NCBI GenBank assembly: GCA_021835105.1
Contig: JAKBQS010000042.1
Span: 1 to 8,015, forward strand
Direction of reading: 5' to 3'
From: Microcaldota archaeon
Lineage (GTDB): Archaea > Micrarchaeota > Micrarchaeia > Micrarchaeales > CABMGC01
DNA: 8,015 nt
In this document: one piece after another, positions 2,431 through 8,015 of the stretch
Position numbering within the stretch: position 1 is the first letter of the stretch
Layout of the letters: each line of letters opens with the position of its first letter
The notes under the pieces: generated by a model
Told to the model about the DNA's origin: nothing
Databases searched by the model: none
Seen by the model: only the letters and a program-made list of their open reading frames with translations
Position numbers and translations under genes: made by a program

Positions 2431-3825
2431 TTATCCCGCAAAGCAGGATTCATACTGCAGCCCGCTAGGGAAGGAAGAAGTCCCTATCCAATTGCCCACG
2501 CCACTGGAAGTAAGCGGGGCGTAATAGACATCAGAAGTAAGTCCTGCAGGAGTGTACCCTCCCACACAGTATATATTGTTATTAACCACTGCGCACGACT
2601 CTCCTCCAACCTGGAGCGGGTAACTATTACTCTGCGTCCATGCCCCTATGCCGCCGCTACCTACAGTAGCATAGTAAACGTCTGCTGTCTCCCCTACTGA
2701 AGACCCACTGTTAGTATATCCTCCCACACAGTAAACTACGCTCCCGCTTATCACACACGGCTGCCCTGCGATGGTAATCGGATAGGATTCTGTAGAGAGC
2801 CAGTTTCCATCAGCTCCTGACGCAATACTTGCGTAATACGTGCTCGTTGTGAAAACCTCAGCTCCGTTAGATCCGCCCACACAGTACATGTTTCCCAGAT
2901 AAGTAACGCACGATGTGCCTGTTATCTGCCCTATAGGGTACGGTGTACCTGCACTCCATCCCCCAAGCCCTGACGCTCCTGCAGAGGAGTAAAAGATATC
3001 GTTTGTGTAAGTGCCGTCGTAATATCCACCAACGCAATATAAATCACCTGTATAACTGCCGAATGTGCACGCTTCTCCGACAACGCTTCCAGGGTAGCTT
3101 GTAGCCGTGCCCCATCCCTGCACTCCAGTATAGGCAGAGGAGATAGGCGCATAGTATACAGAATTCGATGATGAGGATCCGCTTCCTCCCACGCAGAAGA
3201 CTTCTGCTCCATTGGATGCACATGACTGATCCTGCACATTAGCAGGATATGTTACTGGCGATTTCTTCCATGCCTCGAGCCCGTTCTGCGTCACTCCGCC
3301 ATAATAATCATAAGTTGTGCCTATGCTCCCCGTATCGCCTCCAACGCAGTAAACAAAACCCTGCGATGTAGTAGATACTGCTGCACTTATGCTTGCGATT
3401 ATCTGGCTGAGACCTTGCTGAGAGCCCTCAGAATATACTATCCATAAATATCCGTTGAAGTGCGAACCTATTGCAGAATTACTCAATGGGCATGAAAAAG
3501 AGAGGTTATACGTCTGCCCTGCAAGAAAATTAAGGGCAACAGGCGAATAGGATGTCGGGGGCGTCTGGCTGGTTGTGCATGCAATCCCCTGTACGGTAAT
3601 TCCCGTGCCTATATATCCAATGTCTGCAGTAAGTATCCCTCCGCTTGAGAGTTCCGGATTACTGCACTTGAATCCAGAATACGCAACGCATGCGGTAGGA
3701 AGCCCAGCGCCGCTGAAAACGCCAAGCTCGAAAAGTGCGCCGAGAACCACTGCTATAATCAGTATCGCCCATCCGTACGTCATCAGGTATTCCATGGCGC
3801 TCTGGATCCTGAGGTACGGAACCAT
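2431..3825 (-). CDS. Pilin-like signal, cysteine-rich six-repeat kelch surface protein
   Basis: A 464-residue predicted surface protein. Residues 1-37 hold a class III (type IV pilin-like) signal: a short basic start (YLRI), the cleavage-site motif QSAMEYLMTYGWAIL with Q8, E12 and L14, and a hydrophobic helix to about residue 33. Residues 38-155 form a spacer domain with four Cys (46, 54, 83, 112). Residues 157-464 contain six repeats of 50-54 residues with the pattern Y/F-CVGG, VYYA, GxW, YP, then a second Cys. The CVGG cysteines are at 160, 211, 264, 315, 366 and 420, and the second ones at 202, 253, 306, 357, 411 and 461. The double-glycine plus Trp spacing is kelch-like and predicts a beta-propeller, anchored to or assembled on the outer membrane face as a pseudopilin. 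It has its own TATA-like box and no operon partner. The ligand is unknown. Confidence 0.85.
   Translation of the reverse strand: MVPYLRIQSAMEYLMTYGWAILIIAVVLGALFELGVFSGAGLPTACVAYSGFKCSNPELSSGGILTADIGYIGTGITVQGIACTTSQTPPTSYSPVALNFLAGQTYNLSFSCPLSNSAIGSHFNGYLWIVYSEGSQQGLSQIIASISAAVSTTSQGFVYCVGGDTGSIGTTYDYYGGVTQNGLEAWKKSPVTYPANVQDQSCASNGAEVFCVGGSGSSSSNSVYYAPISSAYTGVQGWGTATSYPGSVVGEACTFGSYTGDLYCVGGYYDGTYTNDIFYSSAGASGLGGWSAGTPYPIGQITGTSCVTYLGNMYCVGGSNGAEVFTTSTYYASIASGADGNWLSTESYPITIAGQPCVISGSVVYCVGGYTNSGSSVGETADVYYATVGSGGIGAWTQSNSYPLQVGGESCAVVNNNIYCVGGYTPAGLTSDVYYAPLTSSGVGNWIGTSSFPSGLQYESCFAG
2434..3357 (-). repeat. Six tandem kelch-like coding repeats (about 153 bp each)
   Basis: The C-terminal two thirds of the surface protein consist of six consecutive units whose CVGG motifs are 51, 53, 51, 51 and 54 residues apart. 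The nucleotide repeats are diverged but recognisable, for example the recurrent cccacacagta on the plus strand (TACTGTGTGGG, coding YCVG), seen near 2560, 2723 and 2878. The last unit ends right after its second cysteine (ESCFAG). Confidence 0.8.
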
Positions 3826-3856: not shown

Positions 3857-5107
3857 CTACCTTTTGATCCTTCCATGGCTTGAAGACAAATCCTTTGCTG
3901 CTTCTGCACAGAGAAGATTGAGTTCTCCGGCGAGGCAGACTGCGGCAATGACTTCCGCAAGCTGAAGCCTTGATGCTCCGTCTGGATCATTATCCCCGTA
4001 GAGGCCCATCATCTTTAGCACTTCCATCTGCGTCTCCCTTTTAGTGCCGCCGCCATAAGTTCCTATCTCTATCGAAGGAAGGTAGCATGATATATAGAGG
4101 CCGCCTTTTATAGCAGCAGCATCTGTAAGCGCCTGTGCACCCTCCACTACCTGCGCCATATCCTGCCCCATGGCAAGGTACAATGAGGCCAGCATGTTTG
4201 CTACATGACCATTAAAGCCGTGAGAGCCTGCAAGCGCCGAGCCGCTAAGGTTCTTAGATTTGTTAAGCTCGGCAACTACTTCGGCTTTGAGACCGAACCT
4301 TCTCTCAAGCAGCTCTGCAGGTATAAACAAATCAGCAATCACAGAGACTCCCCTGCCTTCTATAAAGTTTATCAAAGCAGGTTTTTTGTCTGAGCACATA
4401 TTCCCAGATTCGCTTATTATCTCTGCCTCGATTCCCTTGTTCTTCCTGAACTCCGCTACTATTGCATCAGATGCTAACTTAGAAGCAATGGTAACCATAT
4501 TCATGCCCATCGCCGCTCCTGTTGTAGCCCTGAAGCGCAGGTGAACATCCCTTCCTGAAGGGTAAGGCCTGGCCTCTATAAACTTTCCGTGCCTTGTGCT
4601 ACTCGAGAAAGCCCTCCTTAGTATCTCCTGCCCTTCCGCGCTAGACGCAAAAGCCGAGAATGCCGCGGCCTCCTTAACATTGCCTGTCCTTATAAGCACA
4701 TCCCTTGTCATCCCGTCCCTTATCACGGCCGCATTTATCCCGCCCGCTTCATTCGAAGCTGATATTCCCCTTGATATTCCGGCGACGAGCTTTCCTTCTG
4801 TAGTTGCAAGGAGCACCGGATAGCTTCTCGATGCATGCAATCCATTCACCTTTATCTCTCCTGCGTATCCGAGCGGTACCTGCACTGCACCCACAGGATT
4901 CTCTATATTCCTGTCAACCGCATCGTTGAAGTCAAGGGAACCTGATCCTACGGCAGACAAGCTGCACCCAAACCTCTTTTCCAGATAAGCCCTCCTTATC
5001 TCCGTTGCCGTATTGCTATCAATTCCAAGCGATTTCTCAAGGGAATAAAGCTTTAATTCCCCCTTCCCGATCCTCTCCAATGCCTCATCAATATTCTTCC
5101 TATCCAT
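3857..5107 (-). CDS. hmgA: Class I 3-hydroxy-3-methylglutaryl-CoA reductase
   Basis: Reduces HMG-CoA to mevalonate with two NADPH, the committed step towards archaeal isoprenoid membrane lipids. At 416 residues it has normal archaeal length and no membrane domain. All four catalytic residues are visible: E104 in ATTEG, K241 in SDKKPALIN, D316 in GQDMAQ and H411 in SSSHGRI near the C-terminus. The HMG-CoA region ENPVGAVQVPLGYAG (70-84), the dinucleotide-binding GAAMGMNM (197-204), the GRGVSV loop and SIEIGTYGGGT (345-355) are also present. The C-terminal SSSH arrangement fits class I. The ATG at 5107 is preceded by Shine-Dalgarno GAGGTG, which overlaps the stop of the upstream HMGR-like gene. 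The gene is the last of the sucCD cluster in this window. Confidence 0.97.
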   Translation of the reverse strand: MDRKNIDEALERIGKGELKLYSLEKSLGIDSNTATEIRRAYLEKRFGCSLSAVGSGSLDFNDAVDRNIENPVGAVQVPLGYAGEIKVNGLHASRSYPVLLATTEGKLVAGISRGISASNEAGGINAAVIRDGMTRDVLIRTGNVKEAAAFSAFASSAEGQEILRRAFSSSTRHGKFIEARPYPSGRDVHLRFRATTGAAMGMNMVTIASKLASDAIVAEFRKNKGIEAEIISESGNMCSDKKPALINFIEGRGVSVIADLFIPAELLERRFGLKAEVVAELNKSKNLSGSALAGSHGFNGHVANMLASLYLAMGQDMAQVVEGAQALTDAAAIKGGLYISCYLPSIEIGTYGGGTKRETQMEVLKMMGLYGDNDPDGASRLQLAEVIAAVCLAGELNLLCAEAAKDLSSSHGRIKR

Positions 5108-5112
5108 AAAAG

Positions 5113-5118
5113 CACCTC
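5113..5118 (-). promoter_or_regulatory. Ribosome binding site of hmgA inside the stop of the HMGR-like gene
   Basis: Minus-strand GAGGTG lies 5 nt before the hmgA ATG and shares bases with the TGA stop of the upstream HMGR-like gene (ATATGAGGTG). Termination of one gene therefore places ribosomes on the start of the other, which suggests coupled synthesis of the two proteins. Confidence 0.7.
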
Positions 5119-6562
5119 ATATAAGCTTTTCCTTAGTATTTGCCAGCCCATCATTATAAGCCAGCCTGTGCTGGTTTAATCCTCCTGCAAGCGCCGCAGC
5201 AGCTGTAAATGCGGCAATACGTATAGAGTTTGACCCCGGAGCGAGATCCCTCCGCAGCCCCATTATGGCTTCGCATTCTTCCCTAGTCGGTGAGGTCAGG
5301 CCTTCGCTACCCCACTCGAAATTGGTAAGAGTCACAGAGTACATTATTCCCCTCTTGCCATTAATTTCGTATGGCTCCGCATCAGTAATACATGAGGATG
5401 ATAGTATTGGGGGCGAACCGGCAACCGCTGTCATTACCCCTGCTATTATCTCCGGTTCCATTCCGCACATGTGTGCGCTTGCGCCTAATTTTTCCCTCCA
5501 GAGATGATTCTTCGAGTAGCTCATAATATGCATGTCTTCAGCTCCAAGATGCCCTTCGCTTCCTGAGATCTCGTGCATTATATACGGCTCGGGAAGGAAG
5601 ACAGAGGCCTTCACCTTCCTGCCTCGTATGCTCTTATCAGAGACTGCCATATCGCCGTCCTCGCCTCCTGCCAGCCAGAGGCTCCTGTACGGGATCCTTT
5701 CCGCAGTAAGCCTCTCAGTAAGGAAGTTCCTCAGAAGTATGCCTGTAGCATAAGTTGCTATCTCATGTCCGTAAAAATCTCCGCTCATCCTGTATATGAA
5801 ATTCACCGAGAGTTCATGCCCCTCCCCATTCTTGGCATAAGAGCACGTTATCTCTCCAAGCGCACCGCCTTTCTGCGAGAGTATCCTATTAGCCGCATCG
5901 TATACCTCCGATAGGAACTCCGCTGAAGTTATCGCCCTCCGCGCCGCATCTGCATTCTCAAAATTTTCGAATCTGAAAGTCGGGGATCTTGTAGCCACGG
6001 AGTCCCTTTCCACATATACCTTAACGGTTCCGTTTGAACCATAGTCAACAAGCTTTTTAATCATCTTTATTCCGAAGCTCACTCCCTCAGTAACGCCGCC
6101 CCTGAAATTACACATAGGTATAAATTCAGAAGCGCTGAACCTCTCATCCTTGCGCCCATCTTTATTTACCTCGACCTCTATACTTACTGGTCCTGCGACT
6201 GTTATTCTATCACCGCCTATATACTGTACATATTCTGGTTTTCCTGACTCTGAGACAAGATTCCAGTGCGCTGAATTTCTTAAATAATCAAGCTTGGTTA
6301 AGTTTCCGGATGCTTCCATGTGCCTCTCAACTCCCCTCCTAAGTGCTTCTCCTGCGTAGTATTGATAAAAAGAAATAATCTCCTTCTCTGCGAATGCTGA
6401 CGTATAAGTCCTTATTTTGTCCTGCCCGAACCGCTTCTCAATCTCCTGTGGAAGTTTATGGAGGGGCACGCGTCCCCTGAAAACTCCCTCTGCAAGGGAG
6501 TCAAGTATACTGTCGAGCCTCTTCCTCTGCGCAGGGTATCTTCTTTCTATCTCGTAAGCCAT
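5117..6562 (-). CDS. Divergent HMG-CoA reductase paralog, probably catalytically altered
   Basis: A 481-residue protein collinear with HMG-CoA reductase. The N-terminal helix region (LPQEIEKRFGQDKIRTYTSA) matches the HMGR linker domain. YIGGDRITVAGPVSIEVEV (114-132) corresponds to the ENVxGxxxxPxGxAG region. GVTEG keeps the catalytic Glu (E159). MSGDFYGHEIAT (259-270) replaces the GMNM nucleotide motif. GDMAVSDK (303-310) resembles the SDKK lysine motif but is followed by a deletion. AVAGSPP has Ser383 where GQD has the catalytic Asp. FEWGSEGLT replaces EIGTYGGGT. The C-terminus (ANTKEKLI) lacks the catalytic His. It may be a regulatory or structural partner of HMGR, or an enzyme with a changed reaction. 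It starts 4 nt after the sucD stop. The frame is intact over 1.4 kb, which argues for function. Confidence 0.8.
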   Translation of the reverse strand: MAYEIERRYPAQRKRLDSILDSLAEGVFRGRVPLHKLPQEIEKRFGQDKIRTYTSAFAEKEIISFYQYYAGEALRRGVERHMEASGNLTKLDYLRNSAHWNLVSESGKPEYVQYIGGDRITVAGPVSIEVEVNKDGRKDERFSASEFIPMCNFRGGVTEGVSFGIKMIKKLVDYGSNGTVKVYVERDSVATRSPTFRFENFENADAARRAITSAEFLSEVYDAANRILSQKGGALGEITCSYAKNGEGHELSVNFIYRMSGDFYGHEIATYATGILLRNFLTERLTAERIPYRSLWLAGGEDGDMAVSDKSIRGRKVKASVFLPEPYIMHEISGSEGHLGAEDMHIMSYSKNHLWREKLGASAHMCGMEPEIIAGVMTAVAGSPPILSSSCITDAEPYEINGKRGIMYSVTLTNFEWGSEGLTSPTREECEAIMGLRRDLAPGSNSIRIAAFTAAAALAGGLNQHRLAYNDGLANTKEKLI

Positions 6563-6566
6563 CCAA

Positions 6567-7439
6567 TCACATTTCCCCTTCTATAAGCTTTACAGTCTCG
6601 CCTGGAGTAGATCCGACTGTTATTCCAGCCTTCTTGAACGCAGCAATCTTCTCATCTATGCTCCCTCTGCTTCCAGATACTATCGCACCGGCATGGCCCA
6701 TCTTCCTGCCTTTCGGTGCATATCTGCCTGCCATATACGCTATAACAGGTTTTTTTATCGATCCGTCCAAAACCATCGATGCGACTTCTTCCTCCTGCGA
6801 CCCGCCTATCTCACCTATAATCAATATTGCCGCAGTATCCTTGTCTTCCTCAAAAAGGCTGCACGCCTGCGAGAAACGTAGCCCCTGCACAGGATCCCCG
6901 CCAACGCCAATGCATGTGGATTCTCCAAGCCCGACACTGGATATCCGTGATGCCATCTCATACATCAGTGTGCCGCTCCTTGAGGCTATACCTATCTTTC
7001 CAGGGGAAAAGACACCATTAGGCACAAAGCCTATCTTAACCTTCAATTCAGGGTCTATTATCCCTGCGGTATTTGGCCCTATAAGGGTGGCTCCGGACCT
7101 CCTTGCTGCAGACACCATTCTCACCTCACTGTGCAGCGGTATGTTTTCCGGAGGGGCCACAACCAGTCTTATCCCAGCGCTGAAAGCCTCAAGCGCTGCA
7201 TCAAGCGCCGCAGCAGGAGGGACGAAAAGAACAGAAGAATTAGCGCCTGTAGCCTTGACAGCTTCATATACTGTGTCAAATACCGGCACTCCGTGGACGA
7301 TCTCCCCTCCCGCTCCAGGCCTGACTCCACCTACAACTTGCGTTCCATACTCTAGCATGGTCATTGTGTGCATGCTTCCAGCCTTGCCAGTTATACCCTG
7401 CACTATGACCTTAGTGTCCTTATTTAGTATTATTCCCAT
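6567..7439 (-). CDS. sucD: Succinyl-CoA synthetase (ADP/GDP-forming) alpha subunit
   Basis: Alpha subunit of the reversible synthetase converting succinyl-CoA, NDP and phosphate to succinate, CoA and NTP. At 290 residues it is full length. Residues 1-120 form the CoA-binding Rossmann domain (VIVQGITGKAGSMHT; VVGGVRPGAGG). Next come GPNTAGIIDP, IASRSGTLMYEMA and CIGVGGDPVQG. E210 in GEIGGS and the phosphorylated histidine H249 in GRKMGHAGAI are present. The usual TEGIP segment is replaced by PPENIP and the usual GPNCPG by GPNTAG, minor changes near the acyl site. The ATG at 7439 forms TGATG with the sucC stop, and a TTG one codon upstream is the alternative. The substrate could differ from succinate, see the beta subunit. 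Confidence 0.93.
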   Translation of the reverse strand: MGIILNKDTKVIVQGITGKAGSMHTMTMLEYGTQVVGGVRPGAGGEIVHGVPVFDTVYEAVKATGANSSVLFVPPAAALDAALEAFSAGIRLVVAPPENIPLHSEVRMVSAARRSGATLIGPNTAGIIDPELKVKIGFVPNGVFSPGKIGIASRSGTLMYEMASRISSVGLGESTCIGVGGDPVQGLRFSQACSLFEEDKDTAAILIIGEIGGSQEEEVASMVLDGSIKKPVIAYMAGRYAPKGRKMGHAGAIVSGSRGSIDEKIAAFKKAGITVGSTPGETVKLIEGEM

Positions 7440-8015
7440 CAAGCATCAACCGCTGCCTTCACTGCGCTCTCCATATCTGCAAAATTGCGAATGCCGCATC
7501 TTAGCAGAACTTCTTCTCCTTCTCTAACCCTATTTCCAGCCATCCTTACGACAACCCTGAATCCTGGTTTCTTATCCTCAATGAATCTGCGCACCCCTTC
7601 AGCCATCTCATCGCATCTGTTCAGGCCTGCAAATAGGTTCACAAGCATTGCCTTCATAGATCCGCGTTCGCTGAGGATGCAGCACGCTTCGTACACGCCG
7701 TCTCCATTAACCTGTGCAAGGTCAAGGAAGTTTGCAGGCTTTCCTCCGGCCATGCTTATCATATCTAGCGTAGCCATTGCAAGCCCAGCCCCGCTGCATA
7801 CCAATCCTACATCCCCTCCGATATCAACATAAGACCATCCCTTCCCGCTCATCCTTGCGCCTACTCCTTTCTTCATTTCATCAGGGTGTATCATCTGCGC
7901 ACCATCCAATGATATAAACGCATCAAGGGCCGTAAGCCTCCCGCTGCGGTCTAATCCTGCCGGATTTATCTCTACAGTCTCCGCTCCATATGCGCAGAAT
8001 ATCCTGTATAGCCCC
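7439..8015 (-). CDS. sucC: Succinyl-CoA synthetase (ADP/GDP-forming) beta subunit, C-terminal part
   Basis: The 5' end lies beyond the right edge, and 192 residues are visible. The frame is open from the last full codon (GLYRIFCAYGAETVEINP). The ATP-grasp end is recognised from EINP followed by LTALDA, the Mg2+-binding residues of the family, although the Lys normally after DA is Phe here. The C-terminal CoA-ligase domain follows: VDIGGDVGLVCSGAGLAMAT, GGKPANFLDL, AMLVNLFAGLNRCDEMAEG and FRVVVRMAGN. The usual glycine-rich GGGA(T/S) loop after NFLD is replaced by AQVNGDGV, and GGI before RCD reads AGL. These changes are in the part facing the alpha subunit active site, so activity or substrate may be altered. 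It pairs with sucD, which starts inside its stop codon. Confidence 0.92.
   Translation of the reverse strand, partial: GLYRIFCAYGAETVEINPAGLDRSGRLTALDAFISLDGAQMIHPDEMKKGVGARMSGKGWSYVDIGGDVGLVCSGAGLAMATLDMISMAGGKPANFLDLAQVNGDGVYEACCILSERGSMKAMLVNLFAGLNRCDEMAEGVRRFIEDKKPGFRVVVRMAGNRVREGEEVLLRCGIRNFADMESAVKAAVDA

Follow-up and report, generated by a model that had tools for sequence, protein, structure and literature searches.

A conserved HMG-CoA reductase-like protein of Micrarchaeota with all four catalytic residues replaced, encoded next to a succinyl-CoA-synthetase-like ligase

HMG-CoA reductase (HMGR) is the statin-target enzyme, and its fold is among the best studied in biochemistry. In the archaeal DNA analysed here, a stretch of 8,015 nucleotides referred to as the window, a complete HMGR gene is directly preceded by a reading frame for a second HMGR-like protein (HMGR-L). 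Is HMGR-L a partner of the HMGR beside it, a broken copy of it, or a protein with a function of its own? The genes concerned are the following.

3857..5107, minus strand: HMGR of class I type, 416 aa, with the catalytic residues E104, K241, D316 and H411 all there
5117..6562, minus strand: HMGR-L, 481 aa, HMGR fold predicted, all four catalytic positions replaced
6567..7442, minus strand: succinyl-CoA-synthetase-like (SCS-like) alpha subunit, with motif MGHAGA, member of a mevalonate-linked clade
7439..8014, minus strand: SCS-like beta subunit, C-terminal part only, with loop AGLN; the gene runs off the window

HMGR-L is a single uninterrupted frame with an ATG start. The minus strand carries, one after another, SCS-like beta (to 7439), SCS-like alpha (7442-6567), HMGR-L (6562-5117) and HMGR (5107-3857). 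The beta and alpha genes overlap, 4 nt separate the end of alpha from the start of HMGR-L, and HMGR begins 9 nt past the HMGR-L stop, a spacing that suggests a single transcript for all four. The MGHAGA motif of the alpha subunit is presumably the phosphohistidine site. Downstream of HMGR come a gene of the kelch type, one resembling that of RNA polymerase subunit D, and genes that look like those of ribosomal proteins, the ribosomal names being given by eye. A contig (L001) of 'Candidatus Micrarchaeota archaeon isolate MAS1.bin30' (G001) carries an 87%-identical HMGR-L in the same gene order, with the same 9-nt gap to HMGR by its coordinates. It also holds the full-length counterpart of the truncated beta gene (L001:6054-7124), and a mevalonate kinase gene (TIGR00549, above cut-off) precedes the block.

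Based on profile searches, HMGR-L belongs to the HMG-CoA reductase superfamily. It matches PF00368 with an E value of 8e-9, which passes the curated cut-off, in a match that starts at residue 125. Comparison of the HMGR-L and HMGR profiles by hhalign gave a probability of 99.7 and an E value of 6e-27 over 397 columns, and structure prediction of HMGR-L alone, a check that the preliminary description of this locus had proposed, returned the HMGR fold. The homology is beyond chance. Searched against solved structures by its sequence, HMGR-L matched two plant HMGRs along some 100-120 residues close to the C-terminus, with E values of 0.004 for the single sequence and 0.0002 for the profile. The neighbouring HMGR scores 342.9 bits against PF00368 (cut-off 27) and 400.7 bits against NCBIfam TIGR00533 (E 6.7e-120), the latter below the cut-off of 441.8. 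A pairwise BLASTP between the two neighbours was not significant (E 0.55), and their common origin must therefore lie much further back than a tandem copying at this locus. In a tree of 38 rows, the six rows of HMGR-L group as a single clade (100/100), whose stem, with 7.07 changes per column, is so long that its attachment point means little. The window HMGR is not the sister of that clade and falls in a 17-row clade (100/100), outside of which the HMGR of a second, divergent genome with HMGR-L (G163) is found. We therefore reject the idea that HMGR-L arose recently from its HMGR neighbour by tandem duplication. The preliminary description, which saw an old HMGR duplication lying directly upstream of the active enzyme, was right on both its age and its position. 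The profile matches and the model support HMGR-L as an ancient paralog of the HMGR superfamily with a predicted HMGR fold.

What has become of the active site? The HMGR residues E104, K241, D316 and H411 are invariant in 17 of 17 HMGR rows. HMGR-L was brought into register with them by hhalign (window row) and by MAFFT L-, E- and G-INS-i, all of which agree on the catalytic columns. The model has pLDDT below 50 at residues 296-310, 355-366, 383-385 and 475-481, among others; because these active-site loops are of low confidence, the register in the regions of the catalytic Lys and the catalytic Asp rests on the sequence alignments. Of the six HMGR-L rows, the window protein, P0002 and P0003 are about 86% alike, and agreement in 6/6 rows thus stands for about four independent lineages. 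The positions that matter most are given here.

6101..6103, minus strand: Arg154 codon, aligned with the HMGR catalytic Glu (TTEG); invariant, 6/6
5762..5767, minus strand: His266-Glu267 codons, in the place of Met-Asn in the NADPH motif GMN, which reads GHE; invariant, 6/6
5648..5650, minus strand: Met305 codon, aligned with the catalytic Lys (DKK); Met/Leu in 6/6, with Leu in the more distant rows; the loop register is less certain
5510..5512, minus strand: Lys351 codon, a retained HMGR Lys; invariant in the HMGR and HMGR-L families
5450..5452, minus strand: Glu371 codon, at an HMGR-invariant Asn; invariant, 6/6
5132..5134, minus strand: Lys477 codon, at the position of the C-terminal catalytic His; invariant, 6/6

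The fourth catalytic residue, the Asp of GQD, aligns with Gly382, and this column reads Gly, Gly, Gly, Pro, Ala and Ala in the six rows. HMGR-L has thus lost all four catalytic residues, two of them by invariant replacements. The absence of the Asp and of the C-terminal His had been recognised before, the Ser pointed out in place of the Asp being the residue adjoining Gly382. The Glu and Lys that were thought to be kept turned out to lie beside the catalytic columns. The supposed TEG glutamate belongs to residues 158-160, four residues from the Arg154 column at its closest, and column 159 varies as E, E, E, S, D and E. The SDK-like lysine motif occupies residues 308-310, past the catalytic column at 305, and reads SDK, SDK, SAK, SPK, SPK and AVR. 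Of the two nucleotide motifs described as lost, GMNM is indeed replaced, by GHEI in the window protein; GTxGGGT is mostly gone, but the flanking E416 and the two glycines G418 and G421 remain.

The placement of Lys477 was also compared with structures. In two models, the 1dq9_C rows put residue 477 of the window protein and residue 473 of the G163 protein on human residue 866, named elsewhere as the catalytic His (PMC11948995). The 1dqa_B row agrees; other rows are off by one to three, such as 2q6b_D (480 on 866) and 3cd5_D (476 on 864), and the C-terminal end has pLDDT below 50 in both models.

With near-invariant defined as the same residue in 16/17 HMGR rows or more, 18-19 positions that are near-invariant in HMGR and invariant in HMGR-L hold the same residue, 14-15 hold a different one, and 50-51 HMGR near-invariant positions are variable or gapped in HMGR-L. 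The common positions include R135/R192, D240/D304 and K285/K351 (HMGR/HMGR-L). The human counterparts of R192, D304 and K351, namely Arg590, Asp690 and Lys735, we take to be HMG-binding residues. Among the exchanged positions, R154 stands in place of E, H266-E267 in place of MN, E371 in place of N and K477 in place of H. The HMGR-invariant E69 and N70 have no conserved HMGR-L counterpart in any of the three alignments. HMGR-L has invariant motifs of its own, among them GLNQHRL, ATRSPT and GHE, and its invariant polar or reactive residues R154, H266, E267, E371, H465 and K477 include several at HMGR active-site positions. Two unusual HMGRs of other genomes were considered as intermediates and rejected, as both keep GQD and the G030 protein also TTEK and TDKK (by eye). 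They are a divergent 477-aa HMGR with its catalytic motifs kept (L122 5305-6738, G030) and one with a class II look by the motif EEPS, as read by eye (L123 5633-6919, G094).

The term degenerate, used for HMGR-L in the preliminary description, does not fit the way the gene evolves. Comparing the window with L001 by the Nei-Gojobori method gave a dN/dS of 0.073 for HMGR-L and 0.044 for HMGR, both rough values with dS near 1, and of 0.103 for SCS-like alpha. The frame is open in the window, L001 and G163, and dozens of columns are invariant among HMGR-L lineages that are only 32-42% alike. HMGR-L is under purifying selection. It is also rare. Searches with a sensitivity limited to shared 5-mers, scoring 7997-7999 candidates each time, found six clusters among 5.8 billion proteins, P0001 being the window protein and P0006 that of G163. 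Among 301 genomes of the phylum, two hold HMGR-L (G001 and G163; E up to 1e-15), and the same two alone among 395 relatives; a looser tally of 42 out of 295 genomes (E up to 1e-5) consists mostly of HMGRs matched through their C-terminal part. Carriage by a virus or plasmid was rejected, no HMGR-L relative being found in viral contigs or plasmids.

With which protein, then, does HMGR-L go? Its gene context was read in the window, G001 and G163. A three-gene block of SCS-like beta, SCS-like alpha and HMGR-L is present in two divergent Micrarchaeota lineages, one represented by window 5117-8014 and L001 6054-9446 and the other by G163, where the order is the same and alpha and HMGR-L overlap by 4 nt. 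In G163 the HMGR gene is on contig C39 and HMGR-L on C4. HMGR therefore adjoins HMGR-L in one of the two lineages, whereas the SCS-like pair is directly upstream in both. The search for the same gene pair in archaeal genomes, suggested together with the idea of an HMGR hetero-oligomer, thus yielded no conserved pairing of the kind expected for an obligate subunit. HMGR-L neighbours the mevalonate-linked ligase clade wherever its context was read, and this acyl-CoA ligase is its best-supported partner.

To what kind of ligase does the partner belong? An SCS alpha search across the phylum gave matches in 41 of 301 genomes. Seventeen loci (L080-L096) were examined, the others, which score lower, having 79-149 bits in reading frames about 450-680 aa long. 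Seven genomes and the window form one alpha clade (100/99) in a tree that omits G232, which is near-identical to G282. Like SucCD, the SCS-like neighbours have ATP-grasp_2, CoA_binding and Ligase_CoA domains and a GHAGA motif. They differ from it in forming their own clade, in their beta loops, in beta scores below the cut-off and in the company of mevalonate genes. The beta loop is AGLN in 8/8 clade rows and GG[IV]T in 7/8 other Micrarchaeota rows, a comparison made without the G038 and G232 betas, and the loop upstream of it has AQ in place of GG. The NCBIfam NF001913/TIGR01016 cut-off of 370 bits was passed by none of five mevalonate-linked betas tested (222-300 bits) and by four of five other Micrarchaeota betas, the one below it being that of G018; the SCS-like alpha is just over one curated cut-off and just under another. 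The low beta scores hint at another substrate than succinate, although the enzyme may yet be a succinyl-CoA synthetase of the ordinary kind.

The neighbourhoods of the clade are in line with its link to the mevalonate pathway. The ligase is followed by HMGR-L and then HMGR in G001 and the window, by HMGR-L in G163, and directly by HMGR in G100 and G027. In G108 an unknown protein, an M20 peptidase, HMGR, MVK and MDD stand in a row, and the loci of G107 and G230 run into contig ends, G230 having no HMGR match at all. Thus, in five of the seven clade genomes the ligase is in one gene run with an HMGR-family gene. Among ten other genomes, G232 has no HMGR and the other nine have it always on another contig, which in fragmented assemblies is weak evidence of distance, or more than 380 kb from the ligase. 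From this difference, the ligase clade is a mevalonate-cluster gene in several Micrarchaeota. Its loci in mevalonate clusters are listed here, together with those of two kinds of genes that accompany them.

window 6567-8014; L118 3385-5386; L119 7142-9158; L121 4692-7368: SCS-like ligase genes of the AGLN clade
L118 5561-7641; L121 7369-9388; L120 1956-3587; L114 3-1235: M20-type peptidase and 275-306 aa protein loci

The M20-type peptidase genes lie beside SCS-like or HMGR genes in G100 and G108 (by Pfam) and in G107 and G230 (by eye). A protein of 275-306 aa is encoded in the same kind of place in G100, G108 and G230; these proteins have no Pfam match above cut-off, and those of G108 and G230 do not match each other (E 0.79).

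Does HMGR-L fill a gap in the mevalonate pathway? G001 and G163 each hold HMGS, thiolase and HMGR, and their GHMP kinases resemble MVK, PMK and MDD by sequence, partly by eye. As the pathway looks complete in both, HMGR-L is an addition to it and fills no evident gap. The archaeal HMGS model TIGR00748 has a match in G001 and G163, with none listed for G100, G027, G107, G108 and G230. Could the SCS-like enzyme supply HMG-CoA in place of HMGS? This was dropped as a main reading, given the divergent HMGS-like proteins of G100, G027 and G054, which match PF08540 elsewhere in these genomes. The G100 protein (L126 1204-2826) has 540 aa, matches PF01154 as well as PF08540 and adjoins an IPP-isomerase-like gene (by eye); similar frames of 520-540 aa are present in L127 (G054) and L128 (G027). 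G107, G108 and G230 remain without an HMGS match, in assemblies of unknown completeness. As to HMGR itself, G046, G096 and G166 each have two matches, one on either strand and separated by about 2 kb, and G266 has three matches.

To our knowledge, only one other reaction has been shown on the HMGR fold, the reduction of fatty acyl-CoA by FcrA. Compared with class I HMGR (TIGR00533/PF00368), HMGR-L is without any of the four catalytic residues and has GHE for GMN. FcrA is an HMGR homolog of haloarchaea and bacteria that keeps the Glu, Lys, Asp and His, has a small residue in place of the HMG-binding Lys, and lies near the acyl-CoA ligase gene fadD in one genome (PMC11948995). An elongated alkyl pocket is a further mark of FcrA. 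Like FcrA, HMGR-L is a paralog on the HMGR fold, would serve in a role other than that of HMGR, and has an acyl-CoA ligase gene close by. In its catalytic set and its Lys, HMGR-L looks like the opposite case, as the set is gone and Lys351, in our reading the HMG-binding Lys discussed for FcrA, is kept in 6/6 rows. No HMGR paralog with replaced catalytic residues was found in the open-licence PMC literature, among the matches listed, and PMC12892359 names HMGR among Micrarchaeota mevalonate genes, with no paralog mentioned in those passages. HMGR-L is a real, conserved HMGR offshoot, undescribed as far as that literature shows.

The best explanation, in which we have about even confidence, is that HMGR-L is a rare ancient HMGR offshoot that strong selection maintains for a new function. 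On this view it is no broken copy, most likely no subunit of HMGR either, and its job is probably one not yet described. The second suggestion of the preliminary description, a different reaction on HMG-CoA or a related thioester, fits best. The fold, the catalytic swap, the selection and the gene block are computed; from here on we infer what the substrate, the reaction and the complex may be. The SCS-like enzyme would convert a small carboxylic acid and ATP to a CoA thioester, or run in reverse to make ATP. HMGR-L would take this acyl-CoA or acid in the old HMG pocket with R192, D304 and K351, and would act on it through the new polar set R154, H266-E267, E371, H465 and K477, by a chemistry that differs from the Glu/Lys/Asp/His hydride transfer of HMGR. 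In its full form the proposal is tentative: a new enzyme type whose substrate is an HMG-like acid or CoA ester and whose dedicated partner is an ADP-forming acyl-CoA synthetase, with an Arg/His-Glu/Lys site and no NADPH hydride transfer, in a side branch of the archaeal mevalonate pathway.

It is possible, if rather doubtful, that HMGR-L catalyses nothing itself and, as a subunit that binds a metabolite or as a sensor, regulates the SCS-like ligase or the flux through the mevalonate pathway. The replacement of the four catalytic positions and of the GMN cofactor motif would agree with this, as would the three retained residues that we assign to the HMG pocket and a gene that abuts the ligase genes in the same direction; the invariant R154, H266, E267, E371, H465 and K477, however, look more like a new active site. 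A hetero-oligomer in which HMGR-L stabilises or regulates the neighbouring HMGR is unlikely. HMGR active sites form at subunit interfaces and 9 nt lie between the two genes in the window and L001, but a complex is disfavoured by the gene context, as the G163 HMGR is on another contig and elsewhere in the HMGR tree. Moreover, the catalytic set of the window HMGR is already full and its family's E69 and N70 lack a conserved equivalent in HMGR-L. Quite improbable is an acyl-CoA reductase with a re-invented catalytic set, so that the acid would pass through the acyl-CoA made by the SCS-like enzyme to an alcohol: FcrA offers the precedent of an HMGR homolog that reduces fatty acyl-CoA and lies near fadD in one genome, yet it keeps the Glu, Lys, Asp and His (PMC11948995), none of which HMGR-L has, its GMN being GHE in 6/6 rows. 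A decaying, functionless duplicate would account for the loss of the known HMGR motifs and is very hard to reconcile with the low dN/dS, the open frames in three genomic contexts and the invariant motifs specific to the family.

If the preferred reading of a new function is true, HMGR-L would be a natural experiment in which the fold was kept and all four catalytic residues were replaced, two invariantly (Glu to Arg and His to Lys). Its tie to an unusual SCS-like enzyme in mevalonate clusters suggests an acid-CoA step, so far undescribed, close to the synthesis of isoprenoid lipids in Micrarchaeota, archaea whose lipid supply and dependence on a host are in question.

A separate observation concerns the kelch-repeat protein downstream of HMGR (window 2431-3825, minus strand, 464 aa), which has the stretch SAMEYLMTYGWAILIIAVVLGAL at its N-terminus. 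Other proteins in G163 and G001 begin with similar stretches, as if a pilin-type signal were joined to variable outer domains.
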